A stretch of 29,967 nucleotides of DNA from a virus, in IMG/VR virus record IMGVR_UViG_3300022074_000250, positions 1 to 29,967 of that record, one strand, 5' to 3'. This document shows positions 647-17,482 of this stretch, in pieces. The notes under the pieces were generated by a model that worked only from the letters and a program-made list of their open reading frames with translations, did no database searches and was not told the DNA's origin. Positions within the stretch are counted from its first letter, which is position 1. Every line of letters begins with the position of its first letter. A program made the translations under genes and the position numbers.

Positions 647-832
647 TTGTTGATACTCAGCAAGCTGGATGGCATGTACGAATTGTCGCATGCCATCACG
701 GACTCATCCGGTCTCCACATGATGAGGTGGGTGACCGAAAATCCACTGCCCCGTGACTGGGACGACTTCTTGGTGTGGGTGGACTCATACGATAGCGAAA
801 TAGATATGATTGGGCACGACTTTTCTGTTTGA
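647..832 (+). CDS. Small hypothetical ORF, in frame after an amber stop
   Basis: This is the in-frame continuation of the previous ORF after TAG 641-643. A TTG at 647 could start it, or an ATG at 674 giving about 52 residues, but neither has a convincing ribosome site. That favours a single interrupted or read-through gene over two independent ones. The product is acidic and Trp/Asp-rich (PRDWDDFLVWVDSYDSE) with no motif I recognise. Its TGA stop at 830-832 is the first three bases of the conserved promoter module that precedes the clamp-loader gene. Confidence 0.4.
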   Translation: MLILSKLDGMYELSHAITDSSGLHMMRWVTENPLPRDWDDFLVWVDSYDSEIDMIGHDFSV

Positions 833-861
833 CTATATAAACAGAGGTTGGAGGAGGAACT
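830..861 (+). promoter_or_regulatory. TATA-box promoter module, copy 1 (clamp-loader/polymerase unit)
   Basis: TGACTATATAAACA begins at 830 and its TGA is the stop codon of the upstream ORF. TATATAAA at 834-841 matches an archaeal TATA box. The ATG of the clamp-loader gene lies 28 bases after the first T of the box. With usual archaeal TATA-to-start spacing, transcription would begin at or next to the ATG. A GGAGGAGG SD-like tract at 851-857 lies between box and ATG. Two other copies have identical spacing (7557 and 11525). Confidence 0.75.
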
Positions 862-1788
862 ATGGAAGAATACACTGCTTCACCGACCGACATGGAAGAC
901 ATGGTAGGTCTGGAGAAACTGAAGATTGACTTGAACTCTTGGCAGAGTCAACAGACGCAGATGCCTAGTGCTCTGCTGTTCCATGGACCAGTCGGCACTG
1001 GCAAAAGCACATCGGCTCACCTGATAGGCAAGGCGTTACTGGGAGAGCACTATGATGCCAACTTCATCGAGACGAATGGCTCGGACGACAGGGGAATCAA
1101 CTACGTGAGGGATGAGCTGAAGCAGATAATGCGAACTAAGGCTATAGGAGCTAAGCTGAAGATTATACTACTCGATGAGGCTGACGGCCTGACTGCAACG
1201 GCTCAAGATGCCATGAGGAGGATGATGGAGACATACTCATCCAACAACCTGCTGATTCTCACCTGTAACGACATCAGCAAGATAAAGCCAGCCATCAAGT
1301 CCAGATGCGCGGTCTATGGTTTTCCTCCCGTCGATGCCTTCCAAGGTGCGAATAGGCTAGCTGAGGCATATGGGCTGGATGACGTTGCCCCACTGGTGAA
1401 GCTAATACAACTCAACAACGGTGACATGCGCCAGTCAATGATATTCTTGAACTCGGCAGGGCCTGACTATGAGAATAGAATCAATGACCTAGAGGCATCA
1501 ATGGACAACAGCGTACAGCATGTGTTAGCCGATGACTGGCTCAACCTGAGAAGGAGCTTTCACGAGCAACTGAGGATGGGTAGAGGATTACAGGCCATAC
1601 TAACCAATTTCTACAATAACATGCAGGAGCACTTCGACGATGAGGACAACGTCGACTCCATGAATGATATAATGGTCGCTTATGGCGACGTTCTGGTCCA
1701 CAAGCATACGTGGATTGGCAATCACTATTCCTACCTAGATTACTTGGTGGCGAAAATGAGAAAGGAAGTGAAAATGAATGATGAATAA
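862..1788 (+). CDS. rfcS: Replication factor C small-subunit-like clamp loader ATPase
   Basis: This AAA+ ATPase would load the sliding clamp onto primer-template DNA. Walker A is at residues 42-50 (GPVGTGKST), Walker B at 103-108 (LLDEAD), sensor 1 at about 131-137 (LILTCND) and the clamp-loader SRC signature at 147-149. All are placed as in archaeal and eukaryotic RFC small subunits. Length (308 aa) is close to family size (about 320). No RFC large subunit is visible in the window, so the complex may be homomeric, use the host large subunit, or have a partner elsewhere. It is the first gene of the first promoter-defined unit, which also carries the clamp and polymerase. The final codons overlap the next gene. 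Confidence 0.92.
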   Translation: MEEYTASPTDMEDMVGLEKLKIDLNSWQSQQTQMPSALLFHGPVGTGKSTSAHLIGKALLGEHYDANFIETNGSDDRGINYVRDELKQIMRTKAIGAKLKIILLDEADGLTATAQDAMRRMMETYSSNNLLILTCNDISKIKPAIKSRCAVYGFPPVDAFQGANRLAEAYGLDDVAPLVKLIQLNNGDMRQSMIFLNSAGPDYENRINDLEASMDNSVQHVLADDWLNLRRSFHEQLRMGRGLQAILTNFYNNMQEHFDDEDNVDSMNDIMVAYGDVLVHKHTWIGNHYSYLDYLVAKMRKEVKMNDE

Positions 1789-3151
1789 CAAAGATGAGAA
1801 AGACATGCAGAATGGTGAAGGGAACATGAATCCCTTCAATGCTATGAGGAAGCAGGAGGATTGGCCTAAAGCGGTCATGGACCGCTTCGCCATGGTATCG
1901 GAGAGAACCGGTGAGAGCGTACAGAAGATATCTGATGCCTTCATCGAGCATATCGCCAAGCAGTGGGGATGTACTGATTGGAAGGCAGAGGACGAGGACG
2001 TGTTGGTAGACTGGGCTGAGGGAATGCTCATTGAGGACCGAAGCAGTAACGTTAGCGGTAGAGGTGGAGAGACGACCACCTTCGTAGGTCAGTGGCTTGG
2101 TGTGGAAGGCATCGAGAGAGACAGGGCCGCGAACCTCAAGAGATACGCAGAGGAAGCATGGGAGGAGAATCCCAATGACGCTATATCCAGCGGAAGGGTT
2201 GGACACTACTTCAAGGAAGATGGTCTATGGAGCATCAACACAGCTAACGGAGTCGTTGCTACGAATGAACTCATAGGAGAGCCTCCATCACTCGGCTTCA
2301 GGTACAAGGATGAATACCTCTGCTTGATATCGAAAGCAGGAAGGCCATACCCATCAACTAGAATCGGCAGATACTACAAGTTCCTAGGCAATGAGAAGTC
2401 GGCTTACTTCCAAGGGGATGGGCCGATGCTATGGCGTGTTGACCTGACTGGTGATAACAAGGACTTGAACATAGACGTGGGTGTGCCTGTTTCCATACAG
2501 GTCAAACTACCTACCTCCAACTCCCCGGCGTTTCAGGACGTACTATCGACGAACTACGACTTCCCGGACAACATGGTGTACACCGATGAGTGGTGCCCCG
2601 AGAATCTGAGGCACAAGCTCGACCCGTTCAAGCTCTGGACAGATTCAGAGACAGTGGAAGAGAGAAGCAGAGTCATAGTCACTCAGCTAGACAAGCTGGA
2701 GGAGGCGTTTGAGATGCACAAGAGAGAGTGGATGGGTAATCAAGGCATGGTTGCCACAGGGCCTGACATTCTAGTCAGAGCTCAGGTAACCCGGATGAAC
2801 ACAGAAGGTCGAGAATTCCAGAGAGATGATGGGGACAGTTGGAAGAGCTATAGCCTATTCCTCTCCAGTCTCTCCTTGCAGAACAGACACGACGGCAACA
2901 GAGCTGAGGTAGCCGGATGGATTGACGAGGCTGTACATGACTTAGCCCACCCATTCCACTTCAGGGATGTTGATGACGAGCTGTGGGGATATGGTCAGAG
3001 GACAGGCGTCATGATTCATGGCAGACTCAAGATGAAGCAAGACCAAGGGGAGAGCGTTCCATCGATTACAGTATATGGCGTCTACACGGATGCCAAGAAG
3101 GCATGGAGGCAGGCCGGTGGAGGGGACACCGGGTCTGACCAGTTCAATTAG
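1778..3151 (+). CDS. Hypothetical replication protein, candidate ssDNA-binding protein
   Basis: This 457-residue protein starts at ATG 1778 (or 1781) inside the end of the clamp-loader gene, with GGAAGTG as a plausible ribosome site. It has an acidic, methionine-rich N-terminus, then a helical region, then a long mixed central part (about residues 145-260) with alternating hydrophobic residues and aromatics. The tail is Gly/Asp-rich with an FN end, reminiscent of acidic SSB/RPA tails but not diagnostic. No ATPase or nuclease motif is seen. Its place between clamp loader and clamp, and the known presence of RPA-type proteins in magrovirus-like replication modules, make an OB-fold ssDNA-binding role an inference only. 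It could instead be a replisome scaffold. Confidence 0.6.
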   Translation: MMNNKDEKDMQNGEGNMNPFNAMRKQEDWPKAVMDRFAMVSERTGESVQKISDAFIEHIAKQWGCTDWKAEDEDVLVDWAEGMLIEDRSSNVSGRGGETTTFVGQWLGVEGIERDRAANLKRYAEEAWEENPNDAISSGRVGHYFKEDGLWSINTANGVVATNELIGEPPSLGFRYKDEYLCLISKAGRPYPSTRIGRYYKFLGNEKSAYFQGDGPMLWRVDLTGDNKDLNIDVGVPVSIQVKLPTSNSPAFQDVLSTNYDFPDNMVYTDEWCPENLRHKLDPFKLWTDSETVEERSRVIVTQLDKLEEAFEMHKREWMGNQGMVATGPDILVRAQVTRMNTEGREFQRDDGDSWKSYSLFLSSLSLQNRHDGNRAEVAGWIDEAVHDLAHPFHFRDVDDELWGYGQRTGVMIHGRLKMKQDQGESVPSITVYGVYTDAKKAWRQAGGGDTGSDQFN

Positions 3152-3162
3152 GAGATGAGAAG

Positions 3163-3435
3163 ATGAACAAGACGAAGAAACAAATAGAGAACGAGCTAGA
3201 GCAAGCGAACGCTGAGATAGATAGGCTGAAAGAGGGTTACAACAACCTTATGGTTAGTGCACAGGATATACAGAAATTGGCTAACAATAGGTTAGTGTCA
3301 ATCAGACTGTTGGAGACTTTTGTGAACACAGTCAGGTCTGCAACTGACCAGTTGCTAAACGACATGATGGAACTAGGCCTCGTTCAGCGACAAGCCCCTG
3401 AGGATGGGGTTCAGGCTGACGGGGGCGAGCAGTGA
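3163..3435 (+). CDS. Small coiled-coil protein
   Basis: This 90-residue protein starts at ATG 3163, with GGAGATGAG just upstream. Residues 3-30 form a strongly charged heptad-like helix (KKQIENELEQANAEIDRLKE), followed by a second helical stretch to about residue 70 and an acidic, Gly-rich tail. It probably oligomerises. Its stop codon (3433-3435) shares the A with the start of the next gene (TGATG), so the two are likely translationally coupled. Function unknown; a structural partner of the adjacent ATPase is possible but unsupported by any motif. Confidence 0.65.
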   Translation: MNKTKKQIENELEQANAEIDRLKEGYNNLMVSAQDIQKLANNRLVSIRLLETFVNTVRSATDQLLNDMMELGLVQRQAPEDGVQADGGEQ

Positions 3436-4394
3436 TGGCAGGATTCGGACAAGCAAAGGCTCTCGAGGGAGCTATCACACCAATGCAGCAACAGACCACC
3501 AACGACCCCTTGAAGAACATCAGGGCTGAGATGAGCGATGTGAACTCTAACAAGCCGAAGACCCACATATTCATGGCAGTGGTCGGAAAGGAGAATACAG
3601 GCAAGAGCGCCATCATCTTCGACTACTATCAGAAGTACTGCAATGATTTTGCTAGTGAGCCCAATAACGATGGCATGGAGCCAAAGAAGTTCTGGGTCAT
3701 AGACTTCGACTCAGGCGGTTCAGCTACCAAGTCGGCTTACTACTCGGAGAACAAGAACATCAAGTGCTGGGAGCCATGGGTGTACATGGAAGGCGGTAGA
3801 AGCGCTTACAACTACCCAGACACGCATGACAGGGTCATTAACATCATGAAAGTGGCTCTTGAGGAGGCAGACAACCTATGGGGCGTCTTAATCAGCGGAA
3901 TCGACCAGTGGGACAGCGTGGCTACTAATTGTATGCGTATCGCTGACTTAGGGTTGTCCAAGGACGGTATAGAGGCTGCTGACAACAGAGGAGCAGGGGA
4001 TAACACCCGCGTCCAATCCCAATGGGACTGGGCCGTAAGGGTCGCTAGGTTCCACCAGCTCACTGCCATGTGCAGAGCTTTGGTGAAGAGGGGCACGAGA
4101 GTATTCTGGGAGACTCACATGAAGGACGTCTACAAGGACGGGAAGGTATCGAAGACCGATGGTGCCCCGGCTTGGGAGAAGAGCAGTGCTGGGTATATGT
4201 ACCAGATAGTGCACTGTCGTAGGGAAGTGTCCACTGATGACGAGGGCGAGATGACTGGTGAGAAGTACACAGCGACATTCACCAAGAGCAAGACCGACTC
4301 GACTCTACAGGGACAGAGAGTAACGACTCTAGTCACACAGCATGGGAAGCCTCCCAAGTTCATGGGTCTGCCCGAGCTATCAAGGTTAGAGTGA
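3435..4394 (+). CDS. RecA-fold P-loop ATPase, Sak4/AAA_24-like
   Basis: This ATPase is probably involved in recombination or in handling single-stranded DNA during replication. Walker A is at residues 51-58 (GKENTGKS), preceded by a hydrophobic strand (HIFMAVV). A strand ending in an acidic pair (FWVIDFDSGG, 86-95) follows, and a further strand ends with an Asp at about residues 151-160 (VLISGIDQWD), the likely Walker B. ETHMKD near 225 could be the RecA-like sensing element. Architecture and 319-residue length fit the phage Sak4 / AAA_24 nucleotide-binding family rather than full RadA, since no N-terminal helix-hairpin-helix is present. ATG 3435 is preferred over the overlapping GTG 3432. 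Confidence 0.75.
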   Translation: MAGFGQAKALEGAITPMQQQTTNDPLKNIRAEMSDVNSNKPKTHIFMAVVGKENTGKSAIIFDYYQKYCNDFASEPNNDGMEPKKFWVIDFDSGGSATKSAYYSENKNIKCWEPWVYMEGGRSAYNYPDTHDRVINIMKVALEEADNLWGVLISGIDQWDSVATNCMRIADLGLSKDGIEAADNRGAGDNTRVQSQWDWAVRVARFHQLTAMCRALVKRGTRVFWETHMKDVYKDGKVSKTDGAPAWEKSSAGYMYQIVHCRREVSTDDEGEMTGEKYTATFTKSKTDSTLQGQRVTTLVTQHGKPPKFMGLPELSRLE

Positions 4395-4398
4395 TTAC

Positions 4399-5160
4399 AT
4401 GGCTCGGATTACCCTCCCCAAGAGAGAGTGGCAGAAGCACTTGGGACAGTTTCAGGGCAACGTCAATGACCTATCCCTGATTATCTACGACAACCCAGTG
4501 TGTCTGGGTTATGCTGTGGCATACCAGACATACTTCTACAAGATGTTCCAACAGTATCCGGGCGTCAAAGTAAAGCCGGGGAGGATAAACATAAGCGATT
4601 TGTCCAAAGTCAACTCGTTTCTGAAGAAGTGCGATGGCGATGTGACTATCAGACAGGCAGATGGCGGGAAGACTCTCTACATCATCAATGGCAATCTGAA
4701 AATGACCCTACCCATCATGGATATACTGAGTGATAAGATTGTGACTAACTACGAGAAGCTGATAGAGACAGCGGTAGAGGACGACTGGCAAACCTTTGGG
4801 GGTAACGTGCATGAGCTATCGGCTACGACCAAGCTAACGGAAGTCCTCAGATTATCTGGGCTGACAAACCTAGTGAACAAGAACTCTGATTATGTTATCA
4901 GCGCCAACCAATCCGAGATATCGGTATCGGTAGGTAAGCAACACGACACCAGAATGTTCGCAGTTAGTAAGCTAGAGGACGCAGACGGGCCCAACCACAC
5001 CCTCGAGGCTAGTTTCGGACCTTGGCTACTACCGTGCTTATCACTAGTGGATGCCAATATGAAATCCAAGATACACTTCGGAGACCAGTGCGCTATTGTA
5101 ATCAGACAGACCAATGAGAGCGTGCAGAGACTGTTAATTATAGTAGACCAACAGATGTGA
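4399..5160 (+). CDS. pcn: PCNA-like sliding clamp (divergent)
   Basis: The protein is 253 residues, close to the 245-260 of archaeal PCNA. It has the alternating beta-strand pattern of a two-domain clamp and a C-terminal strand (RLLIIVDQQM) in the place where PCNA ends. It lies directly before the B-family polymerase gene (GTGA overlap, 5157-5160) and in the same unit as the clamp loader. Clamps carry no catalytic motif, so the call rests on length, strand pattern and context and is less certain than for its neighbours. If correct, it would ring the viral DNA and tether PolB and perhaps the ERCC4 and Cas4-like nucleases. Confidence 0.6.
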   Translation: MARITLPKREWQKHLGQFQGNVNDLSLIIYDNPVCLGYAVAYQTYFYKMFQQYPGVKVKPGRINISDLSKVNSFLKKCDGDVTIRQADGGKTLYIINGNLKMTLPIMDILSDKIVTNYEKLIETAVEDDWQTFGGNVHELSATTKLTEVLRLSGLTNLVNKNSDYVISANQSEISVSVGKQHDTRMFAVSKLEDADGPNHTLEASFGPWLLPCLSLVDANMKSKIHFGDQCAIVIRQTNESVQRLLIIVDQQM

Positions 5161-7559
5161 TTCTCGTGATTGTCGACTACTATTACCCTAATAACGAATG
5201 GGAAGGAGTCGGCAGACCATCGATATACACTAGGTACAGGGGGAAGGACGGAGATTTGGCGGTTCATACAATAGATGCCAATGACGAAGACCCCTCCTAC
5301 ATACCCCCTCATTGCTGGATTCCACAGAACACAAATCACAGGAGACTCAGCAGAGTCACAGCCAGATACCCCGGCACCAGAGTCAGGGATACGATAGAGG
5401 CTACCGGTATAGTCGCTAGCAGATTCAATACGAGAGTCAAGCTACACAGGCTAGACTTAGCCAACCCATCGGATATTCATGACATCAAGAGGGAGTTACA
5501 GACCTATGAGGGAGACATCACTTACGAGGAGCAGGTCATGAGGCATCTGTACCCAGTAGCGGATGACATCCCCGACTTCCATCCAAGGATATGGTACTTC
5601 GATATGGAGTGGCAGCCCGATGGGACGATGAATGAGAAAGAGATTACGATGATAGCCATTGACGATACTCTCGCAGAACACCCAGTGGTATTCGCTTGGA
5701 GGCACAATCAGGAGTTTCAAGTGGACTTCATCGAGAAGGAGGGCGGGTACATGCGTTACCTATTCCCTAGTGAGGAGGAGATGCTGGTCGCTATGTTGGG
5801 CCACCTACACGAATGCGACCCAGACATATTGGTTGCTCATGCACTGCTGTGGGCAGACCTACCGAAGCTAATTGAGAGACTCGATGTACATGGTAAGGGC
5901 GACGAGCTCAGCCCCTTGCATCAGGTCATGAGGAAGGGCAAGAAGGGATATCGTGAGAACTCACAGCCAATACTCGGTAGGCTAGTCTACGACACAGCAC
6001 AGGAGTGGTCCACTGGCGCTGGGTTGGAAGCCCTATGGCAGAAGAGCGGTAGAGGCCAATTCAGGAACAGGAAGCTAGCCACAATCGCTGAGGACATGGA
6101 GCTGGACAAGGAGTTCGGTGATGAGGGGGCCAAGATGGATGCGGACGTATTCACTTGGTGGTTGGATAACTTCGATGAGTTCGTCGACTACTGTCTACGT
6201 GATACTACTCTATTGAGAAGGGCATCCGAGAGAATCAACGTTATACCATACCATCTAGCCATGCAGAAGCACTGCGGTGTGCCCTTCAAAAGCACATGTA
6301 ACGTATCGAGATACTTTCGTGGGTTGATATCCAGAGCCACTGATTTGAAGGCCGTGACCACAAGGACAGCGACGAGACAGGACTACCAAGCGGCTACAGT
6401 CCCCGATACGGTGCCGGGCAGGCACGAGAACGTGGCTTGCATAGATTTCAAATCAATGTACCCCACTATCTTCGTCGATGCTAACCTATGTCTCACAACC
6501 AAGAAGAGCGCAGGCGGAGATGGTATCAGAAGCGTACCAAATGGCACTCATTGGAACACTAAAGAAATAGGCATCATACCTTCCATACTCAAGGGCATGC
6601 TCGAATTGCGAGCGAAGTACAAAAAACTACTCAAGGAAGCTAAGACTGAGGAGGAGAAGCTACAGTACGACATGATGCAAACAGCAGTCAAGGTAGCCAC
6701 GAATGCTACTTACGGATACGTATCGCAGAAGTCGGTGGCTGGAGGTTGGATTGACCCTGATATCGGCGCGACCATCACATATTACGGCAGGCAGTGCATT
6801 CGCACCTTGCTCGACAGAAGCGACGACGTGGGCTACACTGCATTAGCGGGCCACACAGACTCAGGTTACATTCAGATTCCATTTGATGATATTGAGGGAC
6901 ACTTAGACAACCTCAACTCCTACATTCAGAAGAAGTACGACTTACCGAACATGGAGATAGAGCTCGAGGCTTACTTCGACTACTGGCTCACTGCTGGCGT
7001 CAAGAACCAGAACTTCGGTATCATGGTTTGGCCACCGGAGAAGAAGGGGCACCTCAAGGTGACAGGATTCTCATTCAAAGCCTCAAGCGTCTCCCCCGTC
7101 ACTAAGGAGATGCAAGGTAGCATATTCCAAATGATAGGAACTGGCGCGGGCGAGGAAGAGGTCACTGAGTTCGTGAGACCGATAGCTCTGTCCGTGCTCA
7201 AAGGGGAGAGGAGTGCAGAGGAGCTAGCACCCTATGGCAGATGGGGGCAGGCCAAATACAAGAAGACCCCACCAATGGCTGCTAGAGCGGCAATGTATTA
7301 CAATCAACACATCAATCCTAAGGAGCCATTCAGAGTGGGTGATAGCCTACAGTGGCTATACGTTAAAGCCACACCTGAGGGTAAGCCTCACACTGCGGTA
7401 GTCGGCTTCCGAGATTTCGAGGAGATAGACGGATACCACATAGACTACGACCTCTGCGTCGAGAAATTCATTCGTAAGAAACTCACGAGAATATACGAGG
7501 CTTTGGAATGGGACGTGAGGAAGGCATCAGGGGAAGCTATGCCAAAAAGGTATTTTTGA
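5157..7559 (+). CDS. polB: Family B DNA polymerase with 3'-5' exonuclease domain
   Basis: This is the replicative polymerase, 800 residues, starting at GTG 5157 overlapping the clamp stop. Exo I is FDMEW (D149, E151); Exo III is YCLRD (Y345, D349). The Exo II region (AHALLWADLPKL, D234) keeps the Asp but lacks the usual Asn and the aromatic before Asp. Polymerase motif A is DFKSMYPT (D430), motif B is KVATNATYGY (512-521) and motif C is GHTDS (565-569), where the first Asp of the usual DTD is His566 while Asp568 is kept. No intein is seen. Length and motif order fit host-like or viral polymerases copying with RNA or DNA primers; a protein-primed type would usually be shorter with extra inserts. 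Confidence 0.95.
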   Translation: MILVIVDYYYPNNEWEGVGRPSIYTRYRGKDGDLAVHTIDANDEDPSYIPPHCWIPQNTNHRRLSRVTARYPGTRVRDTIEATGIVASRFNTRVKLHRLDLANPSDIHDIKRELQTYEGDITYEEQVMRHLYPVADDIPDFHPRIWYFDMEWQPDGTMNEKEITMIAIDDTLAEHPVVFAWRHNQEFQVDFIEKEGGYMRYLFPSEEEMLVAMLGHLHECDPDILVAHALLWADLPKLIERLDVHGKGDELSPLHQVMRKGKKGYRENSQPILGRLVYDTAQEWSTGAGLEALWQKSGRGQFRNRKLATIAEDMELDKEFGDEGAKMDADVFTWWLDNFDEFVDYCLRDTTLLRRASERINVIPYHLAMQKHCGVPFKSTCNVSRYFRGLISRATDLKAVTTRTATRQDYQAATVPDTVPGRHENVACIDFKSMYPTIFVDANLCLTTKKSAGGDGIRSVPNGTHWNTKEIGIIPSILKGMLELRAKYKKLLKEAKTEEEKLQYDMMQTAVKVATNATYGYVSQKSVAGGWIDPDIGATITYYGRQCIRTLLDRSDDVGYTALAGHTDSGYIQIPFDDIEGHLDNLNSYIQKKYDLPNMEIELEAYFDYWLTAGVKNQNFGIMVWPPEKKGHLKVTGFSFKASSVSPVTKEMQGSIFQMIGTGAGEEEVTEFVRPIALSVLKGERSAEELAPYGRWGQAKYKKTPPMAARAAMYYNQHINPKEPFRVGDSLQWLYVKATPEGKPHTAVVGFRDFEEIDGYHIDYDLCVEKFIRKKLTRIYEALEWDVRKASGEAMPKRYF

Positions 7560-7588
7560 CTATATAAACAAGGTATGGAGGAACGAGT
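7557..7588 (+). promoter_or_regulatory. TATA-box promoter module, copy 2
   Basis: TGACTATATAAACA begins at 7557. Its TGA is the stop codon of polB, and TATATAAA lies at 7561-7568. ATG 7589 is 28 bases after the first T, as in copy 1. Identity with copy 3 extends through AAGGTATGGAG. It heads the MazG-like/primase/nuclease unit. Confidence 0.78.
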
Positions 7589-7774
7589 ATGAGTAGAATA
7601 GAGGATGAGGTTTGTAAGAAGATACAATCCAGAGCTGAGGTAGGCAAGAAAAAGTATGGGGTAACTATGGAAACCGCACCACTATCCAAGCTAGAATGGC
7701 TCATACACGCTCAAGAGGAAGCAATGGACCTAGCGGTGTACCTACAGAAGCTCATTGAGATGGAGGGAGAGTAA
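7589..7774 (+). CDS. MazG-like (all-alpha NTP pyrophosphohydrolase) small protein
   Basis: This 61-residue helical protein contains KKYGVTM followed by LEWLIHAQEEAMDLAVYL (about 35-52). That matches the compact phage MazG-like proteins, with acidic residues E36, E43, E44 and D47 placed as metal ligands of the all-alpha NTP-PPase fold. Known members hydrolyse (d)NTPs or related nucleotides. It is shorter than a complete MazG domain (about 90-100 residues), so it probably works as an oligomer or is a minimal version. It is the first gene of the second promoter-defined unit. Confidence 0.65.
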   Translation: MSRIEDEVCKKIQSRAEVGKKKYGVTMETAPLSKLEWLIHAQEEAMDLAVYLQKLIEMEGE

Positions 7775-8083
7775 GTGAGTTATCGAAAATTATTCAATTA
7801 CATAATTGGTATGGGATTAGGTGGACTAGGTTTGTTCAACTCAAGTAAGTTAGAGATACGATATGAAACAAATAGCAACTTAGAGTTGCTCTATCAAAAT
7901 GGTATGATAATATCTAGCGTTATTATTGTGTATTTCTTCCTAGCCTTTTGGGTGGAGATGCTGATGATGCGGACTATGCGTAGGCGCAAAGCAATGCGTA
8001 AAACATTTTTTGTCGATGAAGAACCTCTAGCAATTAGTGACTTCGTAAAACCTCCTACAGAAAAAACGGAGGAAGATGAATGA
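7775..8083 (+). CDS. Small membrane protein, one or two transmembrane segments
   Basis: Starts at GTG 7775, directly after the upstream stop, with GGAGGGAGA as ribosome site. Residues 43-64 (IISSVIIVYFFLAFWVEM region) form a clear transmembrane helix followed by a strongly basic stretch (RRRKAMRK), so the C-terminal tail should be cytoplasmic. A weaker hydrophobic Gly-rich segment lies at about 7-21. The coding sequence is visibly richer in A+T than its neighbours, which may mark separate acquisition. No family recognised. A holin-like or membrane-anchoring role is possible but unsupported. Confidence 0.6.
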   Translation: MSYRKLFNYIIGMGLGGLGLFNSSKLEIRYETNSNLELLYQNGMIISSVIIVYFFLAFWVEMLMMRTMRRRKAMRKTFFVDEEPLAISDFVKPPTEKTEEDE

Positions 8084-8205
8084 TATCCAAGTGCGTTTGT
8101 GGCTGGCAAGGGCTGACTGATACCCTAATTCTCAAAGGCATTCCAATCTGTCCTATGTGCAACAGAGAGTTCTCACAGATGAGATGCGAGGGGTGTGGGG
8201 AATGA
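8080..8205 (+). CDS. Mini zinc-ribbon protein, 41 aa
   Basis: ATG 8080 overlaps the stop of the membrane-protein gene (ATGA), with GGAGGAAG just upstream. The 41-residue product has paired cysteines CVC, CPMC and CEGC, enough for a zinc ribbon or two small zinc knuckles. Its stop overlaps the start of the Cas4-like gene (ATGA at 8202-8205), so translation is probably coupled. It is one of several tiny Cys-rich proteins in this block. Binding partner unknown. Confidence 0.6.
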   Translation: MISKCVCGWQGLTDTLILKGIPICPMCNREFSQMRCEGCGE

Positions 8206-9191
8206 GATTCATGAAGTTCAATCCGAATGAGCAGTCTCTCATAGACAGAGGCCCTGAAGCTCATACAGAGGAGCTTGAGCAGTCGTATCATGGTAGTACA
8301 TATGCTTGGTCACCGGGCATGGACAAGAAGCTCAGGATGAGTAAGTCATCGCTAGGCTCATTCCTGTGGTGCCCATTCAAGTACAAGGCTAGCTACATAT
8401 ATGGCCTCAACGAGGAGGAGACTGACGATATGGTCAGGGGTACCAACGTCCATTCCATAGTGGAGTACTTCTGGGACAATGTGACTGACGTCAAACAAGA
8501 AGCAGTGGAACTGTTGCAGAAGGGAGAGGAGAGAGAGGCCAAGAGGCTATTGAAGAAGGTGATACCTGACCCTCCGATGCCCTACTTGTTAGGGGAGGAA
8601 GCGGTGATAGACCAATGGTTCGAGTGGCAGTGGAACAGATTTAGTGTAACTGAGGGATTCAACTGGGAGGCAATAGGCAATGAGGTCTCAGCGCACGCTT
8701 CCATAGATGTGGACGTGGATGGGGAGAGCTATCCTGTCCACTTGCGCGGTTTTATCGATACTGTATTCTCCGATGGTGATGGGGGATTTGTGCTCATGGA
8801 GTTGAAGACAGGTAAGTGGAATCAGAGAAAAGCAAAGAGCATGAGAGAGGAAATGCAATTCTATAGGCTCATGCTAGAGGAGGGTAACTATGTCAAGTAC
8901 CTACCAGTATCAGCATGGGCTTGGGAATTTCCCAGAGGATGGGCCAATGGTGGCCTCAAAGCGGAATGGGAGATTGAGAATACCAACACTAGGAAGACCA
9001 GCTATGCGCCCAAGACTGTGAAAAGAAACATGGAGAAGCTGGTCAGAGCACATGTGAACGATTCATTTGAGCCAGCCCCAAAAGAGTGGAGAGGGCCAGA
9101 TGGAGAGACTCTATCTAGCTGCCAGATGTGTAGCTTCATGGAGATATGTCCTGCTTGGAGCATGGACGCAGAAACGGAGGAAAGAAAATGA
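8202..9191 (+). CDS. Cas4-like / PD-(D/E)XK exonuclease with Fe-S cysteines
   Basis: A RecB-family nuclease, probably processing DNA ends during replication or recombination. From ATG 8202 (329 aa) the Cas4 signature is complete: C57 in FLWCPFKY, H84 in VRGTNVHS, D186 in RGFIDTVF, E200-L-K202 in MELKTGK, Q219 in MQFYRL, and C307, C310, C316 in CQMCSFMEIC. C57 plus the three C-terminal Cys would hold a 4Fe-4S cluster. An in-frame ATG at 8157 exists, but 8202 has a better ribosome site (GGGGTGTGGGG) and the ATGA junction. No Cas1, Cas2 or CRISPR array is near, so a replication or repair role fits better than CRISPR adaptation. Confidence 0.88.
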   Translation: MRFMKFNPNEQSLIDRGPEAHTEELEQSYHGSTYAWSPGMDKKLRMSKSSLGSFLWCPFKYKASYIYGLNEEETDDMVRGTNVHSIVEYFWDNVTDVKQEAVELLQKGEEREAKRLLKKVIPDPPMPYLLGEEAVIDQWFEWQWNRFSVTEGFNWEAIGNEVSAHASIDVDVDGESYPVHLRGFIDTVFSDGDGGFVLMELKTGKWNQRKAKSMREEMQFYRLMLEEGNYVKYLPVSAWAWEFPRGWANGGLKAEWEIENTNTRKTSYAPKTVKRNMEKLVRAHVNDSFEPAPKEWRGPDGETLSSCQMCSFMEICPAWSMDAETEERK

Positions 9192-9523
9192 GCAGAGAAG
9201 AGATGAATAACAAATTAAACAGAGTTAGAATAGCGCTAGAGGACTTAGTGAGAACAGATGATAGTAGCATGACAGTCAATGTCAGATATGGGTTAATTGA
9301 ACCGAAGAGTCACACAATCAGTCTGACAAAGCAAATGACCCTAGATGCATATGTCGATAACAACGAGCAGGACATGCCGATGTCATTTCCAGTGCTGGAC
9401 GTGATTGTGCATAAAGGGGCCTTCAATAGGAGGAAGGATTGGGAGCTAGTCTACACTCCAGAGGTTTTAGCGATGATGATTCATAAGGATGCTAGAAAGC
9501 TAGCTAACTACAAAATCAGGTGA
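9188..9523 (+). CDS. Hypothetical protein between Cas4-like nuclease and primase
   Basis: Starts at ATG 9188, overlapping the Cas4-like stop (ATGA), with GGAGGAAAG upstream. It is 111 residues, a mix of helices and strands with basic patches (FNRRKDWELVY) and no Cys, membrane segment or catalytic motif recognised. Position inside the primase unit suggests an accessory DNA-metabolism role, but nothing in the sequence proves it. An in-frame GTG/ATG start further upstream (9146) would need a long overlap and is less likely. Confidence 0.6.
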   Translation: MSREEMNNKLNRVRIALEDLVRTDDSSMTVNVRYGLIEPKSHTISLTKQMTLDAYVDNNEQDMPMSFPVLDVIVHKGAFNRRKDWELVYTPEVLAMMIHKDARKLANYKIR

Positions 9524-9527
9524 TTTG

Positions 9528-10637
9528 TTGACTTTCATTGAGTTGGACTTTCCGAGGGAGGTCCTTGAGATTAGCGAGGGAGGGGTCAGTGGTGGTCGCT
9601 GGCTAGTCAACAATTGGGATGAGCTTGAGAAATACTGGAATAACAAGAACGGGCGTGGCGATGCTTACTTCACCACATATGGATTCAGGCAGACTCAACC
9701 TCCTAAGCATCACAGGGCTGCTCATAACAGTGCGATAGTCAGGCACTTCGTAATGGACTTCGACTGCAAGGACTTCAAGCGGAATGGTGCTCCTGTGGAG
9801 TTCTCTTTCATGCATAAGCAAGTCAGGAGACTCCATAAGCATCTCTCGGATAACGATTTCCTACATTACGTCTGGTTCAGTGGAGGGGGGTTTCACATAT
9901 GGGTACCCATATCCGACGTTCACTTACCAACAGACGGAATAGATGTAACAAGGGTAAAGAGAGCTGGGAGAGAGCTAATGACCAAGTGGTACAATCTCCT
10001 AGACTTATCATGCAACGACCCAACTGTCGCTTTCGATTTAGCAGGTATGATTAGGATACCTAACTCTTACAACTATCGAAGAGGGTGCTGGAGCACGCCA
10101 CTGACATCAGAAGAAATCATGGGGTTAAACGAAGATGAGCTCTATGATTTATCTCAGGATTGTCGGGGTGGCTACATAGCACATGGTAACTCTAAAATGG
10201 AGTTAAAACTACCAGAGAGGTCAAAGGGCACATTCTACATAAAGAGAGGAAAAGTATCTGATTTGCCTGACGTGTCATTAGGTAACATGATTGTGTTGCC
10301 TTGTATAGCTCAAGCCGCTTTAGGGGCAGGTAATCCTCCACACAGAGCTAGGTATCACTTGGCCTCTTATCTAGCTGACAGGCTTAGGTGGTTCTTACCA
10401 TTCGACGTCGTTAATGAGAAGGAGCTCAGTAGTCATACTGAGCGTATTGTAGGTATATGCTCCGAACAAGGTTGGGCTGATTACAATCAAGACATAACCA
10501 GAACTCAAGTTGAGAGTATAGTACATAAGGGATATCCGCATGCAAAATGTGCTACACTGATACAAGAGGGGTTCTGTGTAGGTAAGTGTAGATTCCACGA
10601 TGGGACTGGGGATGAGTTATTTGAGCAAATGTTGTAA
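9528..10637 (+). CDS. priS: Archaeo-eukaryotic primase fused to a PriL-type Fe-S domain
   Basis: Makes primers for the viral polymerase. With start TTG 9528 (AGGTGA four bases upstream; TTG 9525 is the alternative), the AEP motifs are D77-F-D79 (FVMDFDC), the SGGGFHIWVP block with H123, and D170 (AFDLAG). The C-terminal part (from about 255) has C259 in LPCIAQAAL, then PPHRARYHLASYLADRL and a tail with C341, C350 and C354. That is the pattern of the PriL C-terminal domain, which binds a 4Fe-4S cluster. Archaea and eukaryotes normally carry these as two subunits; here catalytic and Fe-S parts are one 369-residue protein. The gene uses a non-ATG start. Confidence 0.88.
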   Translation: MTFIELDFPREVLEISEGGVSGGRWLVNNWDELEKYWNNKNGRGDAYFTTYGFRQTQPPKHHRAAHNSAIVRHFVMDFDCKDFKRNGAPVEFSFMHKQVRRLHKHLSDNDFLHYVWFSGGGFHIWVPISDVHLPTDGIDVTRVKRAGRELMTKWYNLLDLSCNDPTVAFDLAGMIRIPNSYNYRRGCWSTPLTSEEIMGLNEDELYDLSQDCRGGYIAHGNSKMELKLPERSKGTFYIKRGKVSDLPDVSLGNMIVLPCIAQAALGAGNPPHRARYHLASYLADRLRWFLPFDVVNEKELSSHTERIVGICSEQGWADYNQDITRTQVESIVHKGYPHAKCATLIQEGFCVGKCRFHDGTGDELFEQML

Positions 10638-10866
10638 GGACTGCGGAGTGAAGCTAAGAGGCAGGAACATAAGGAAAAAGAGGTTGAATGGGTATGTATC
10701 TAGACAACTATGCCAACACTGCTTCAATCACCCGAAGGAGAAGGATAGGTGCGAAATAATCAAATCTAACGGGGAGAGATGTAAAATGAGGAAGAGGGGA
10801 GATATGAAATGGTGTTCATTCCATGTCCCCAAGGGAGAGGAGAACGATGGAGTTACAGATAGATAG
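10612..10866 (+). CDS. Small two-module zinc-binding protein
   Basis: Product is 84 residues from ATG 10612 (an ATG at 10600 is also in frame). The first module has CCKDCG ... CQHC spaced as a zinc ribbon. The second has RCEII..NGERCKM ... WCSFH, a C-C-C-H arrangement like a treble-clef knuckle. Many Arg/Lys residues between the modules suggest nucleic-acid contact. It overlaps the primase 3' end and the nuclease 5' end, so it is coupled to both. Family unknown. Confidence 0.65.
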   Translation: MSYLSKCCKDCGVKLRGRNIRKKRLNGYVSRQLCQHCFNHPKEKDRCEIIKSNGERCKMRKRGDMKWCSFHVPKGEENDGVTDR

Positions 10867-11527
10867 CAATGAGAGAGGAAAACTCTGTGATGCAGTTATT
10901 CGCAAAGCGAATAGTGCCGGTCTGATTGTAGAGAGGAAGACGCTAGTGGTAGGAGACTACTTGCTCGGTGGAGCTTGCGTCGAGGCGAAAAGCATAGGTG
11001 ACTTCCTACATTCATGTGACAGCGGTCACCTATGGAAACAGTTGGATAACATGGATGCTAACTACGAGAGGTTCTTCCTTCTGATACATGGCACTATCGC
11101 TGAATACGTCAAGCACCAGAAGAAGCCTTACAGCGCCGTCCAAAGCAAGATGATTGGGTTGGTAGGCAGAGTCATGGCAGACTTCGACTGTCAGGTGTTC
11201 TGCACCCCCCATACTAGTGAGGCGGCACTTTTCATAATCAAACTACACAACAAGCTACACAAACCAGCTTCCAGACACGGGGCACAAGCGATAAGGAGAG
11301 TCAGTACTAACGACGTCAGGAAGGACGTACTACTAGGCATACCCGGAGTGGGGCCAACCATGGCCGATAGGTTACTGAAGGAATGTGGCTCCATAGAGGA
11401 GATGCTCTACATGGAATCGCTAAAGAGAGTCAAGGGACTTGGTGATAAAATAGCCAAAAGAATAGTATCGGTTTTGACAAGCGAGGAAGTCATACACATA
11501 GAGAGAAATGTAATGAAAAGAAGATGA
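10847..11527 (+). CDS. ERCC4 (XPF/Mus81/Hef)-type structure-specific nuclease with two HhH motifs
   Basis: Cuts branched or flapped DNA in repair and replication. From ATG 10847 (226 aa) the ERCC4 core shows D6 and E9-R10 (IDSNERG), VGDY (35-38) and VEAK (E46, K48), which corresponds to the ERK part of the GDY-ERK signature with Ala in place of Arg. The C-terminal part has two helix-hairpin-helix DNA-binding motifs: GIPGVGPTMADRLL (164-177) and VKGLGDKIAKRI (195-206). Length fits the helicase-less archaeal XPF (short form), which works with PCNA; a viral clamp candidate is encoded nearby. Last gene of unit 2, its TGA forming the start of promoter copy 3. Confidence 0.9.
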   Translation: MELQIDSNERGKLCDAVIRKANSAGLIVERKTLVVGDYLLGGACVEAKSIGDFLHSCDSGHLWKQLDNMDANYERFFLLIHGTIAEYVKHQKKPYSAVQSKMIGLVGRVMADFDCQVFCTPHTSEAALFIIKLHNKLHKPASRHGAQAIRRVSTNDVRKDVLLGIPGVGPTMADRLLKECGSIEEMLYMESLKRVKGLGDKIAKRIVSVLTSEEVIHIERNVMKRR

Positions 11528-11556
11528 CTATATAAACAAGGTATGGAGAAACAAAA
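11525..11556 (+). promoter_or_regulatory. TATA-box promoter module, copy 3
   Basis: TGACTATATAAACA begins at 11525. Its TGA is the stop of the ERCC4 gene, and TATATAAA lies at 11529-11536. An ATG at 11557 is 28 bases after the first T, as in copies 1 and 2, but it opens only a five-codon ORF before the real gene at 11571. Confidence 0.78.
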
Positions 11557-11574
11557 ATGGAGTTGGTAAGATGA
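11557..11574 (+). other. Possible 5-codon leader ORF coupled to the next gene
   Basis: ATG 11557 sits where the other two promoter modules have the start codon of a real gene. It encodes Met-Glu-Leu-Val-Arg and then TGA (11572-11574), which overlaps the downstream ATG 11571 as ATGA. It may be a leaderless mini-ORF that delivers ribosomes to the next start by termination-reinitiation, or a relic of a start-site shift. This is inference from spacing only. Confidence 0.35.
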
Positions 11575-12977
11575 AGGACGCAAGTGAGTACGAGGCAGTG
11601 AAGAAATATCCTGTGTTTGACGGTTATATCAAACACTTCGGAAACGTATCGATGGATAATGACATACCAGCTATGCTATCCTTCTTCTTCGTTCAAGGTC
11701 AATTGGCAGTGCCATATGTAAGAATACCATGGGGAGCTAGCCACTTGGACCCTAGAGTTCACTCGTTCTGGATTCAGTCCAGTAGAACTGGCAAGTCGAT
11801 AGCATGGGAGTTCGTGGGCGACATACTGAACTCAGTAGGCATACCTACCGATTTGTACACAACAGGTACAGATGCAGGTCTCATAGGAGGATTCGAGGAG
11901 ATTACTGATGGTGAGGGTAACAAGGAGCAAATTCTCAAAGAAGGCTTCCTGAATGGGCGTAAGGCCTTGAACTTCGATGAGGGGTCGATTATTCTCAACC
12001 CCAACAAGCACAGCTCAGAGACTGTTCTCTACCTACAATCGGCATGCAACCCAGTGGGTAGCAACAACAACGTCCTAGTCAAGCACACTAAGGCAGGAAG
12101 AATAGAGACTGAGTCCCTAGTGTCATTGTGGATTACCACATACCCACCTGCTGGCGTCAAGGAGTATGTACTGACAAAGGGTATCTTCCAGCGAGTTCTA
12201 CTATACTGGTCTCACTGGGACATGAACCGTAGAAAGAACGTAAGCGAGCTTAGGGCCGAAATGGCTTACAAGAAGATACCTAAGATGGAAGTTACGTATG
12301 ATGAGTTGGTCGATTACTTCACAACACTGGAGAAGAAGCTCAAGAACAGGGTGCTGGAGATTACAGAGTGCTCGGTGCTTGAGTGGGACACGAAGTCTAG
12401 GTCAGAGCAAGAGGAGTTACTCCAAGACACGATGCAGGCTATGTATACCGCTGACCCGTACACATTCCTACCATCCCTACTATCGGCTATAGACGAGTAC
12501 TACCAACTGATGGACGGACTCGGTCCGGGTATCAGCGATGTAGTATCGTCATTCATACCGGCGATGGAGAACTACACAGTCATATTCGCCACACACATAG
12601 CCATGCTTGATGACAAATGGGAAGTCGATGGTAATCACGTGAGAATGGCTACTGAGATTCTATACGACCTGTTTCGCAATCTGATATCTTGGCTTGAGGG
12701 AGAGGTCGAGATAGGACCCAAGGTCAGCGAGAGAGCCACTCAGAGAAACAAGTGGATTGTGGCAATGCAAGCCACTGTGCCTTATGAGCTAGGTAACAGA
12801 GGAGAGGGATGGCATAGCAAAGCAGATGTCATAAAGGCATACATGGCCCAAACTGGAATCACCAGAGGAACTGCGTACCAGCACTTCGACAAGTGGGCCA
12901 AGTCAATATTCAACGAGAGCAAGGACGGAACCAAGGGATATCTAAGGCTAAGGGAGGAATTAAAGAATGTCACTTAA
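11571..12977 (+). CDS. P-loop ATPase, candidate replicative helicase
   Basis: The 468-residue protein has a Walker A variant SSRTGKS (70-76) after a hydrophobic strand (HSFWIQ), a Walker B at 133-138 (LNFDEG), a polar sensor-like strand at about 185-193 (SLWITTYPP) and a candidate arginine finger R208 (GIFQRVLLYW). That order resembles phage DUF3987-type and other hexameric helicase/ATPases. The C-terminus (about 395-465) looks like a winged helix (WHSKADVIKAYMAQTG..RGTAYQHFDKW). No other replicative helicase appears in the window, and the gene heads the third unit of a replication block, so a helicase role is a reasonable inference. The exact family is uncertain. Confidence 0.7.
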   Translation: MKDASEYEAVKKYPVFDGYIKHFGNVSMDNDIPAMLSFFFVQGQLAVPYVRIPWGASHLDPRVHSFWIQSSRTGKSIAWEFVGDILNSVGIPTDLYTTGTDAGLIGGFEEITDGEGNKEQILKEGFLNGRKALNFDEGSIILNPNKHSSETVLYLQSACNPVGSNNNVLVKHTKAGRIETESLVSLWITTYPPAGVKEYVLTKGIFQRVLLYWSHWDMNRRKNVSELRAEMAYKKIPKMEVTYDELVDYFTTLEKKLKNRVLEITECSVLEWDTKSRSEQEELLQDTMQAMYTADPYTFLPSLLSAIDEYYQLMDGLGPGISDVVSSFIPAMENYTVIFATHIAMLDDKWEVDGNHVRMATEILYDLFRNLISWLEGEVEIGPKVSERATQRNKWIVAMQATVPYELGNRGEGWHSKADVIKAYMAQTGITRGTAYQHFDKWAKSIFNESKDGTKGYLRLREELKNVT

Positions 12978-13705: not shown

Positions 13706-13875
13706 CAAACGAAGAAATTGAAAAAATGAAAAGAGAACTGCTAGAGCATCAAATTGCCTTTGACCGAATATACAGAATGGTCACTGGCGGAAGCAACCTG
13801 CATGACATAAGCAGAGTTGTATCCAAATTGAAAATGCGGGTCGGGTACCCATTTGATGGAGGCGAGGAAGAATGA
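13699..13875 (+). CDS. Small hypothetical helical protein, 58 aa
   Basis: ATG 13699 overlaps the exonuclease end, and TGA 13873-13875 overlaps the chaperonin start (ATGA). The purine-rich tract AGAGGTTGAGTTGG precedes it. The product starts with a charged helix (NEEIEKMKRELLEHQ) and ends in acidic residues. The coding sequence is richer in A than its neighbours. No motif recognised; filling an otherwise empty 167-base gap with perfect junctions supports it being real. Confidence 0.55.
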   Translation: MVTNEEIEKMKRELLEHQIAFDRIYRMVTGGSNLHDISRVVSKLKMRVGYPFDGGEEE

Positions 13876-15383
13876 GCGACACCAAGACAGAGATAACACT
13901 CAGGACTAACATAGAAGCGGCTAGAGTAATTGTCAACACTGTCAAAACCACTCTAGGCCCATTAGGTAGGGATAAGCTACTGGTGGATGCTGGTGGTAAC
14001 ACAATTGTCACTAATGATGGAGCCACGATACTACGCGAGCTAGACGTCAGTCACCCAGCTGCCAAGATGATTATCGAATGCGCTAAGACACAGGAGGCTG
14101 AGTGCTACGATGGTACGACATCATCAGTCATAGTCGCTGGTCAGCTTCTCGCTAACAGCGAGGGCTTACTGAACAAGGGACTGCACCCTAATCTGGTTTG
14201 CATGGGTTATCACGATGCGGCTAGACTAGCGATAGAGAGACTCAATGAGCTTGGTAGACAACCAATAAACATGGATGACTCCCTCAGTGCTGTAGTTAAG
14301 ACAGCCATAACAGGAAAGACCTTAGCGGCAGATATGAATCATGTCACTCTTCTAGTGAAAGAATCACTGGATGGCACTACCAACAAGCCTAGAGTAATAT
14401 GCCTACCCGGAGGTGGGTTATCAGACTCTGAGCTGATTCAGGGAGTCGTGGTGAACAAGACGACTACTCTACCATTGGAGAATGAGTATAGAGAGCCAAT
14501 TGAGACGAACGTCATACTCCTCAACTCAGGGATGGAGCCTACCAAGACAGACGACAACGTTCAAGTGCAACTGGATATGAAGGGGTACTCGCAACTAAAA
14601 TCATCTGCTAACAACGACGTCCTTCAGTCAGCCAAGCAGATAATAGAGGCGCTGGGGGACAAAGGTATGGTTTTCGTCAGAGATGGTGTATCAGACTCAG
14701 CAGTGTCCTATCTGAAGAAGAACAACGTGAATGTAGTCAGGAGGATACCTGAGAGCGTGATTCAATCCCTATCCGCATCCTTAGGAGTGCCTGTGCACCA
14801 CTCGCCCTCCGAGGGGATGAGCTCAGTGAAGACTCTGATACAGGAGAAGGAGATTGACGATGTCAAGTACCTCTTCGTGGAGGGTGATAGCCCAGAAGTC
14901 AACACGTTGGTCCTCAGGGGGTCCACTAGAACCACTCTCGATGAGACCGAGAGGGGATTTGATGACGCCCTAGGGGTAGCGGCTCTCTTGAAGGAAGGTG
15001 GGGACTACGTATGGGGCGGGGGTTCCACTTATGCGGCTCTAGCCTATCACCTAAGGACTGAGGCGGCAAGCGTCAGTGGACGCAAGCAGATGGCCATAGA
15101 GGCCTTTGCCGATGCCTTGGAGATAATACCAGCCACTCTGGCTGAGAACAGCGGACATGACCCACTGGATTGCATACTCGGAATGAGGAAGCACCTGTAT
15201 GACGACCCCCTCATGGAGAGCAAGGCCATGGGGCCAAACGTCGAGGAAGGCGGGCTGACCGATATGGCTGTGCTGAGTGTGGTTGAGCCCATGAAGCTAG
15301 TCAGACAGGCTATACTGAGCGCTACAGAGGTCACGACGGCCATGCTGAAGATTGACGACATGGTGGCTAAGAGGGCAGAGTGA
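13872..15383 (+). CDS. ths: Group II chaperonin (thermosome subunit)
   Basis: A 503-residue archaeal-type chaperonin, expected to form a double-ring folding chamber. It has the N-terminal block TLGPLGRDKLLVD and NDGATIL (48-54), the phosphate loop at 79-84 (YDGTTS, with Tyr where Gly is usual but D80 kept), the DDAL equatorial Asp region before GGGSTYAALA, and the C-terminal ATEVTTAMLKIDD. The apical segment is present. The subunit is some 35-45 residues shorter than most host thermosomes and lacks the flexible GGM-rich tail. Chaperonins are unusual in viruses; this one may help fold virion or replication proteins. Its start overlaps the gene upstream and its stop overlaps the gene downstream. 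Confidence 0.95.
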   Translation: MSDTKTEITLRTNIEAARVIVNTVKTTLGPLGRDKLLVDAGGNTIVTNDGATILRELDVSHPAAKMIIECAKTQEAECYDGTTSSVIVAGQLLANSEGLLNKGLHPNLVCMGYHDAARLAIERLNELGRQPINMDDSLSAVVKTAITGKTLAADMNHVTLLVKESLDGTTNKPRVICLPGGGLSDSELIQGVVVNKTTTLPLENEYREPIETNVILLNSGMEPTKTDDNVQVQLDMKGYSQLKSSANNDVLQSAKQIIEALGDKGMVFVRDGVSDSAVSYLKKNNVNVVRRIPESVIQSLSASLGVPVHHSPSEGMSSVKTLIQEKEIDDVKYLFVEGDSPEVNTLVLRGSTRTTLDETERGFDDALGVAALLKEGGDYVWGGGSTYAALAYHLRTEAASVSGRKQMAIEAFADALEIIPATLAENSGHDPLDCILGMRKHLYDDPLMESKAMGPNVEEGGLTDMAVLSVVEPMKLVRQAILSATEVTTAMLKIDDMVAKRAE

Positions 15384-17087: not shown

Positions 17088-17188
17088 GTTATTGGGTGTA
17101 TGTGTTGTGATTTAGACGTTGTCATATCAGTGAATAAATCATGCAATCATGCAAAAAGAAAATATAGTATCGGTGTACTTATTACACC
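17088..17188. promoter_or_regulatory. Divergent intergenic region with probable promoters
   Basis: This is the main intergenic space between divergently transcribed genes. On the plus strand, AAATATAG at 17160-17167 lies about 26 bases (centre to ATG) before ATG 17189, the same geometry as the three TATATAAA modules, so a leaderless promoter is plausible. On the minus strand, TCTAAATC (17110-17117 in plus coordinates) lies at a similar distance from ATG 17087, but is weak. A tandem 8-base repeat lies between them. No other gene is visible here. Confidence 0.5.
17138..17153. repeat. Tandem 8-bp repeat, possible operator
   Basis: ATCATGCA occurs twice head-to-tail in the divergent promoter region. 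Position between the two start sites and a length near one DNA turn for the pair suggest a regulator binding site, but two short copies could also arise by chance. Confidence 0.4.
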
Positions 17189-17482
17189 ATGAGTTTGTTT
17201 CGGTGGTTTGCGCGTAAGTTGATGGGGATAATGGGTAATGTGTATGTGTGGTTGGACAAACGAGTGGAATACACCAAGGAAGAGGTAAGCAGCGTCTTGG
17301 GCATTCCGATAGACGATGACCTGCAAGTGAGCTCCAGATACGAGTTGTGCAGAAGGGTAGAGGAGACTTTCGATGTGCCTAAGGACTCCTTCTGGACTTT
17401 GCACAGCACACAGAAGATAAGGTTCGCAGTACAACAAGCTAGGAATCTGAAAGCAAGCAAGGGAGTTGTAGCTAGTGAGTAA
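17189..17482 (+). CDS. Hypothetical protein with amphipathic N-terminus
   Basis: A 97-residue protein that begins with an aromatic, basic and hydrophobic helix (SLFRWFARKLMGIMGNVYVWL), possibly membrane-associating. It is followed by a soluble helical part with YTKEEVSSVLG and a basic C-terminal region. The KEEVSSVLG segment is mildly like a helix-turn-helix but I would not call it. It has its own TATA-like element and is the first gene of a short plus-strand cluster facing the tail genes. Confidence 0.55.
   Translation: MSLFRWFARKLMGIMGNVYVWLDKRVEYTKEEVSSVLGIPIDDDLQVSSRYELCRRVEETFDVPKDSFWTLHSTQKIRFAVQQARNLKASKGVVASE

Follow-up and report, generated by a model that had tools for sequence, protein, structure and literature searches.

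Here we report that a 14-base sequence, TGACTATATAAACA, occurs three times in a 29,967-nucleotide stretch of viral DNA (IMG/VR record IMGVR_UViG_3300022074_000250; the whole stretch is called the window below). The three modules around it are, we consider with good confidence, copies of one virus-wide promoter that serves the replication gene block and is rewritten in concert from lineage to lineage, its sites probably tracking a common reader.

Each module has five upstream bases (TTGAC), then a TATA-like box and then a downstream segment of about 12 bp, in total about 24 bp, and would set the start of RNA polymerase about 28 nt past the first T of the box. Transcripts would be leaderless at sites 1 and 2 and would carry short SD-bearing leaders at site 3 and at most sites in relatives. 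A single word is common to the copies of a lineage, and from one lineage to the next the copies change as a set. The simplest cause would be a reader that recognises a specific sequence and evolves together with all of its sites; it would most likely be virus-encoded and work with the TBP, TFB and RNA polymerase of the host.

The window encodes an RFC small subunit, a family B DNA polymerase (PolB), a PD-(D/E)XK nuclease, a primase-like protein, an ERCC4-type nuclease, a thermosome and a cytosine methylase, and a second gene block lies on the opposite strand. Two-block viruses of marine group II archaea that bear a replisome have been described in the order Magrovirales (PMC12999244, PMC10768690). 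Judged by its gene content, the window comes from a Magrovirales-type virus of marine archaea, whose own replisome, chaperonin and two opposite blocks it matches. Relatives were collected through matches to RFC, ERCC4 and PolB, and 19 records were scanned at full length; these records are metagenomic and mostly incomplete fragments. A thermosome search of genome contigs for host promoters returned 73 loci, none of them titled Poseidoniales.

The three modules of the window

The copies of TGACTATATAAACA at 830, 7557 and 11525, as originally noted, are exact; they lie on the + strand only, and no further copy was detected in the whole window with up to 2 mismatches allowed. When the window was simulated 300 times with an order-3 Markov model, a single simulation contained any 14-mer with three same-strand copies. 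The TGA of each module is, again as noted, the in-frame stop of the upstream gene (830-832, pre-RFC gene; 7557-7559, PolB; 11525-11527, ERCC4). At all three sites an ATG follows at +32 from the first T of this TGA and at +28 from the first T of TATATAAA; the exact spacing thus stands, but the third ATG (11557) encodes MELVR-stop only, the start of the conserved 468-aa gene being at 11571. Sites 2 and 3 have about 23 nearly identical bases in common rather than 14, and site 1 departs after the box. Among the matches listed in an exact scan of viral contigs with TGACTATATAAACA, most were to contigs with no relation to the window, which is no surprise for a 14-mer so rich in AT, and only those to relatives were used. 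The features of the window, all on the + strand, are as follows.

347-832, +: pre-RFC gene (family median 144 aa), found ahead of RFC in 17 records; module 1 begins with its stop TGA (830-832)
825-853, +: promoter module 1 (predicted), with TTTGAC upstream, the TATATAAA box at 834-841 and the downstream segment; predicted TSS 862
862-1788, +: RFC small subunit (clamp loader); AAA PF00004, 2.3e-16; PHROG clamp loader, 1.2e-38
5157-7559, +: family B DNA polymerase; PF00136, 3.6e-32; its TGA begins module 2
7552-7581, +: promoter module 2 (predicted), with TTTTTGAC, the TATATAAA box at 7561-7568 and AAGGTATGGAGGAAC; predicted TSS 7589
7589-7774, +: 61-aa conserved small protein, PHROG 11184 (function unknown), first gene of unit 2
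10823-11527, +: ERCC4-type nuclease with HhH motifs; PF02732, 7.2e-13; its TGA begins module 3
11520-11549, +: promoter module 3 (predicted), with GATGAC, the TATATAAA box at 11529-11536 and AAGGTATGGAGAAAC; predicted TSS 11557
11557-11574, +: MELVR-stop, a frame of five codons that starts with the +32 ATG and whose TGA overlaps the ATG at 11571
11571-12977, +: 468-aa Walker-A protein, in the same place in 20 of 20 records; the gene behind module 3
13872-15383, +: thermosome-type chaperonin, downstream in the same block; PF00118, 3.9e-114

The RFC mRNA is probably leaderless, with its ATG at +28 of the box. At site 3, the segment 11557-11574 may be read either as a 14-nt leader with GGAG or as a tiny upstream ORF, and the layout in the closest relative (G001) is similar. 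In that genome (L240, 8373) the 468-aa gene is 98% identical, a CTG takes the place of the window's ATG, and the +32 ATG opens MELVT-stop. The 468-aa protein had no match in Pfam, NCBIfam or PHROG; a reading of its sequence makes it a likely replication ATPase or helicase. The replication functions of the module-driven genes suggest that they would be expressed early.

Two further observations concern the window itself. An in-frame TAG (641-643) splits the pre-RFC gene and may represent a nonsense change, a sequencing error or recoding. A 97-aa + strand gene at 17189 is preceded by a TATA-like AATATAG after AAAAAGAA, 28 nt before its ATG (17161-17189); this box looks like an ordinary archaeal promoter, unlike the repeated word.

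The upstream part of the element (TTGAC, TTCAC or TTTGG, depending on the lineage) is not the A-rich or purine-rich BRE typical of archaea. A bacterial sigma-70 promoter was rejected: 17 bp beyond the TTGACT of site 2 stands AGGAAC instead of TATAAT, and the genes of the region are of archaeal type.

One word per genome and its concerted change

Repeated 12-mers were enumerated in each record without any motif given beforehand. In most records the top or near-top repeated 12-mer was one word, present on one strand only, with 11 copies in G009, 12 in G008, 9 in G007, 9 in G002, 13 in G022, 12 in G030, 11 in G024, 12 in G025, 9 in G028, 5 in G003 and 6 in G004. Nine records thus hold 9-13 copies (those of G002 within 38 kb), with essentially none on the other strand, and any 12-mer reached at most 4 copies in Markov-simulated sequences. 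The element measures about 24 bp, and its copies are nearly identical within a genome and all lie on the strand of the replication genes, at gene starts inside the replication block. Counted from the first T of the box, the conserved block covers about -5 to +18. Ahead of late-strand genes, no comparable box was seen at -28.

The modules had been thought to define three co-regulated units. Their conservation as promoter modules in relatives agrees with this, but three is not the full set: close relatives have 5-9 copies and complete-sized relatives mostly 9-13, and the lower count arose because only this window had been seen. An upstream stop lies within -6 to +8 of the box T at 28 of 133 sites, through a TGA at -4 or a TAA at +4; a stop codon inside the module is common and not essential, and is expected because the genome is compact.

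Near-identical copies within a genome might also belong to a replication origin, a packaging site or a mobile repeat kept uniform by copying. We regard this as extremely improbable, given the single orientation, the positions at gene starts, the fixed spacing, the orthologous positions and the unrelated flanks.

The search for the motif in relatives that had been suggested as a check found the element conserved, in a lineage-specific form at orthologous sites, where the words differ between lineages (e.g. TATATAAACC, TACTTAAACA, TATTTAAACG and CTTTAAGAACC). At the site that follows the pre-RFC gene, a lineage-specific box was present in nearly all complete upstream regions inspected. The words can be aligned as follows.

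Window: TTGAC-TATATAAACA
G002, G003: ...AACTGG
G009: ...AACCGAGATTGAA
G008: TTGAC-TACTTAAACAAAGAATGAA
G007: TTTGG-TATTTAAACGAAGATAGTA
G028: GAC-TATTTAAACTGATAAAGA
G022, G030: TTCAC-TACTTAAAGCAGCATCAA
G024: GTTGA-TATATAAAGSAACAGTAAG
G027: GAG-TATATAAATCRGCAAAGAA
G016, G018: TTGAC-TATAAAAGGGAATAG
G025, G026: CCTTTAAGAACCATCAACAATA (most deviant)

The core of the box varies by lineage (TATATAAA, TACTTAAA, TATTTAAA, TATAAAAG, CTTTAAGA), and a TAnnTAAA-like core is retained in most lineages. A separate word (AATAGGCACTAC / GTAGTGCCTATTCCGAC) occurs 3-4 times per record, clustered, in G003, G018 and loci L022, L057 and L083.

The 30-mers at the pre-RFC, post-PolB and post-ERCC4 sites are 77% identical within a genome and 50% identical between genomes at the same site; the within-genome value is partly conditioned on the search word, which the 12-mer enumeration and the simulations are not. 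For a stronger test, sites were paired across genomes by the family of the downstream gene. Between G009 and G008 this gave 9 shared sites, every one of which carries differences at one set of 5 positions, with the rest of the block nearly unchanged; between G009 and G007, all 6 shared sites carry differences at one set of 8 positions. On the PolB tree, short branches join G008 and G009/G034 as sisters. Orthologous positions with non-orthologous letters argue against a recent dispersal of repeats and are the signature of sites that track a common reader; the swap of all copies together in each lineage suggests that this reader is a protein that changes with them.

The words could instead be no more than optimal promoters for the TBP and TFB of each host, with hosts or TFB paralogues differing between lineages and no viral reader involved. 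In most words a core compatible with TBP lies at a suitable distance from the start, a change of host might in principle account for the concerted change, and archaeal viruses depend on host TBP and TFB according to published reviews (PMC5569661). We nevertheless consider this explanation rather unlikely, if the most serious of those weighed here. The close sisters G008 and G009 are altered at all shared sites, and late viral genes depend on this host machinery too, but none was seen to have such a box ahead of it. The near-identity, moreover, spans about 24 bp, including the segment from -20 to -10, which general factors normally read loosely.

Start distances and leaders

An ATG was assignable by rule at 120 sites in 15 genomes, ATGs inside the word being set aside. 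Measured from the first T of the box, the ATG lies at 26 (7 sites), 27 (3), 28 (15), 29 (11), 30 (4) or 31 (5), which makes 45 of 120 sites at 26-31, and at 34 or more in 72 of 120; only two fall at 22-25. The distribution has a sharp lower edge at 26, a peak at 28-29 and a second, broad group at 34-54. An SD-like tract precedes 55 of the 72 distant ATGs (34 or later) and 19 of the 45 near ones (26-31). The edge and the split in SD tracts fit a fixed start at about +28, with a leaderless mRNA where the ATG lies there and an SD-led one where it comes later. The spacing between the box and the RFC gene is kept in many lineages despite the changed letters of the box.

At the post-ERCC4 site, six sister genomes and the near-duplicate G034 begin a leader of about 90 nt at the distance otherwise taken by the ATG; in the window and in its nearest relative the spacer at this place is short. 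The expectation that all modules give leaderless mRNAs therefore has to be narrowed: the distance fits at sites 1 and 2, but not at site 3, where most close relatives have the leader of about 90 nt. The GGAG tract had appeared paradoxical, as an SD-like sequence between box and ATG in DNA that would not be transcribed from the module. This paradox is weakened by the position of the tract at a fixed distance from the box (about +16 to +20), that is, inside or at the edge of the conserved block, whose downstream promoter segment is lineage-specific.

In sister clades the conserved leader of about 90 nt (L230:14907-15004, L233:11541-11635 and equivalents) contains nested inverted repeats (ATTCC..GGAAT, TCTATAC..GTATAGA), which form a plausible two-stem hairpin with one compensatory pair only. 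Other clades have different inverted repeats right before the ATG of the 468-aa gene, e.g. GACCCC..GGGGTC. Such repeats might possibly serve autoregulation or be an origin element.

The location of the motif between tightly packed co-directional genes, with the upstream stop inside it, would also suit an element that acts in RNA, transcribed between cistrons and used there by a viral nuclease for processing or by the ribosome for translational coupling. This is very unlikely: a TATA-like core with a fixed minimum of about 28 nt to the ATG is what a DNA promoter predicts, the element also stands ahead of the non-coding leader in relatives, and the RNA around site 3 folds worse than shuffled sequences (z = +1.6), with no stable structure.

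Candidate readers and comparison with known systems

No viral TBP was found in 26 records, and the search for one candidate reader common to all motif-bearing genomes returned none. G025 and G026 encode a complete TFB behind the thermosome, and none was found in the other 24 records searched. A full viral TFB was rejected as the general reader, being confined to G025 and G026; TFB-bearing relatives outside that lineage lack their word.

A mini-cyclin protein (A2; 94-116 aa) is present in 21 of 34 records, with its gene some 2 kb upstream of RFC; judging from relatives, the gene of the present virus would fall just beyond the left edge of the window. The predicted structure (AF2 pLDDT 92, pTM 0.85) comprises five helices in a single cyclin fold. 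Its closest matches are cyclin C (Z 10.3), yeast TFIIB in its second repeat (Z 10.0; rmsd 2.5 over 87 residues) and, on the archaeal side, Pyrococcus TFB (Z 8.8); for helical models a Z under about 13 can be unspecific, and the matches shown for the mini-cyclin are cyclin and TFIIB folds. The protein has this single repeat only, with no Zn ribbon, B-reader/linker or second cyclin repeat. Its sequence matches to TFIIB and TFIIIB70 are weak, TFIIB falling below the threshold, and the comparison of its profile with the two viral TFBs was not significant. A universal role was rejected, as the protein is missing from the motif-bearing G027, G028, G025 and G016; within part of the order it is a reasonable candidate, and no more than that. 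More tentatively, and at a probability that we put as low, a virus-encoded, TFB-like mini-cyclin with a single repeat, itself part of the regulon, may act as a specificity factor that reads the word of its lineage beside host TBP; reader and promoters would then be replaced together, as a 'promoter code' that separates co-infecting lineages.

The conserved stretch covers BRE, TATA and downstream DNA, where archaeal repressors act, and might thus be a dispersed repressor operator over ordinary TATA boxes (cf. Aca8 in rudiviruses) that later shuts the block off. Virus-specific regulators have been proposed for such sequences in Sulfolobus viruses (PMC11065993). The words have no evident palindrome and no conserved repressor-type gene was found in all genomes, which makes an operator doubtful; it would be compatible with the promoter explanation preferred here, which leaves the sign of regulation free.

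The promoter set resembles those of the single-subunit RNA polymerases of T7-group phages, in which each genome likewise uses a single promoter word that varies from one related phage to another, its copies being rewritten together. No viral RNA polymerase is known from archaeal viruses (PMC5569661). Among these, SIRV2 and other Sulfolobales viruses use one regulatory sequence around BRE/TATA for many early genes, with varying flanks that imply virus-specific regulators (PMC11065993). The sharing of one sequence around the core promoter by several genes of a virus is found here as well. In the Sulfolobales viruses, however, the TATA/BRE core is highly similar between viruses and anti-defence genes are served while core genes are under other promoters, whereas here the box itself changes by lineage and core replication genes are served. 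In the SIRV2 genome, the same 12-mer test gave at most 5 copies of any 12-mer. The GTC element of SIRV1/2 promoters (Kessler 2004, as cited in PMC5569661) is likewise virus-specific and lies just downstream of TATA; its sequence differs, and the element described here is variable between lineages and nearly invariant within a genome. With canonical archaeal TATA/BRE promoters and leaderless mRNAs the modules share a TATA-like box and a distance that fits a TSS at the ATG, but they have no A-rich BRE, conserve a specific downstream segment and include many SD-leadered sites.

Genes for basal initiation factors can occur in archaeal tailed viruses: a viral TFB has been described for Aoguangviridae (PMC10768690), the haloarchaeal tailed virus HJTV-2 has an annotated TATA-box-binding protein (L396, 31047-31661), and clear TFBs are present here in G025 and G026. 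The 12-mer test revealed no promoter word of this kind in the haloviruses HJTV-2 and HSTV-2 (partial). The 48.5 kb examined of HSTV-2 (KC117376, L398) contain GGTTGTGTCCCG 5 times, more often than simulated sequences would.

No discussion of promoters was found in the magrovirus literature searched, in which the founding papers were partly covered, and the literature searched held no published description of the single-cyclin-fold protein family. Regulatory sequences shared within a virus and specific to it are already known from Sulfolobus viruses, as is the downstream element of SIRV. What is new is that the regulon serves core replication genes, that the box itself changes and that it does so in strict concert among close relatives; the single-cyclin-fold family is new as well.

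With these proposed promoters, the order Magrovirales, known from metagenomes only, gains a readable transcription programme in which the starts of units can be called from sequence and virus lineages can be typed by their promoter word. One promoter type is predicted to yield both leaderless and leadered mRNAs. A dozen sites that change in step among close relatives are a clean natural experiment in cis-trans co-evolution and point to an undiscovered reader, possibly a stripped-down TFB.
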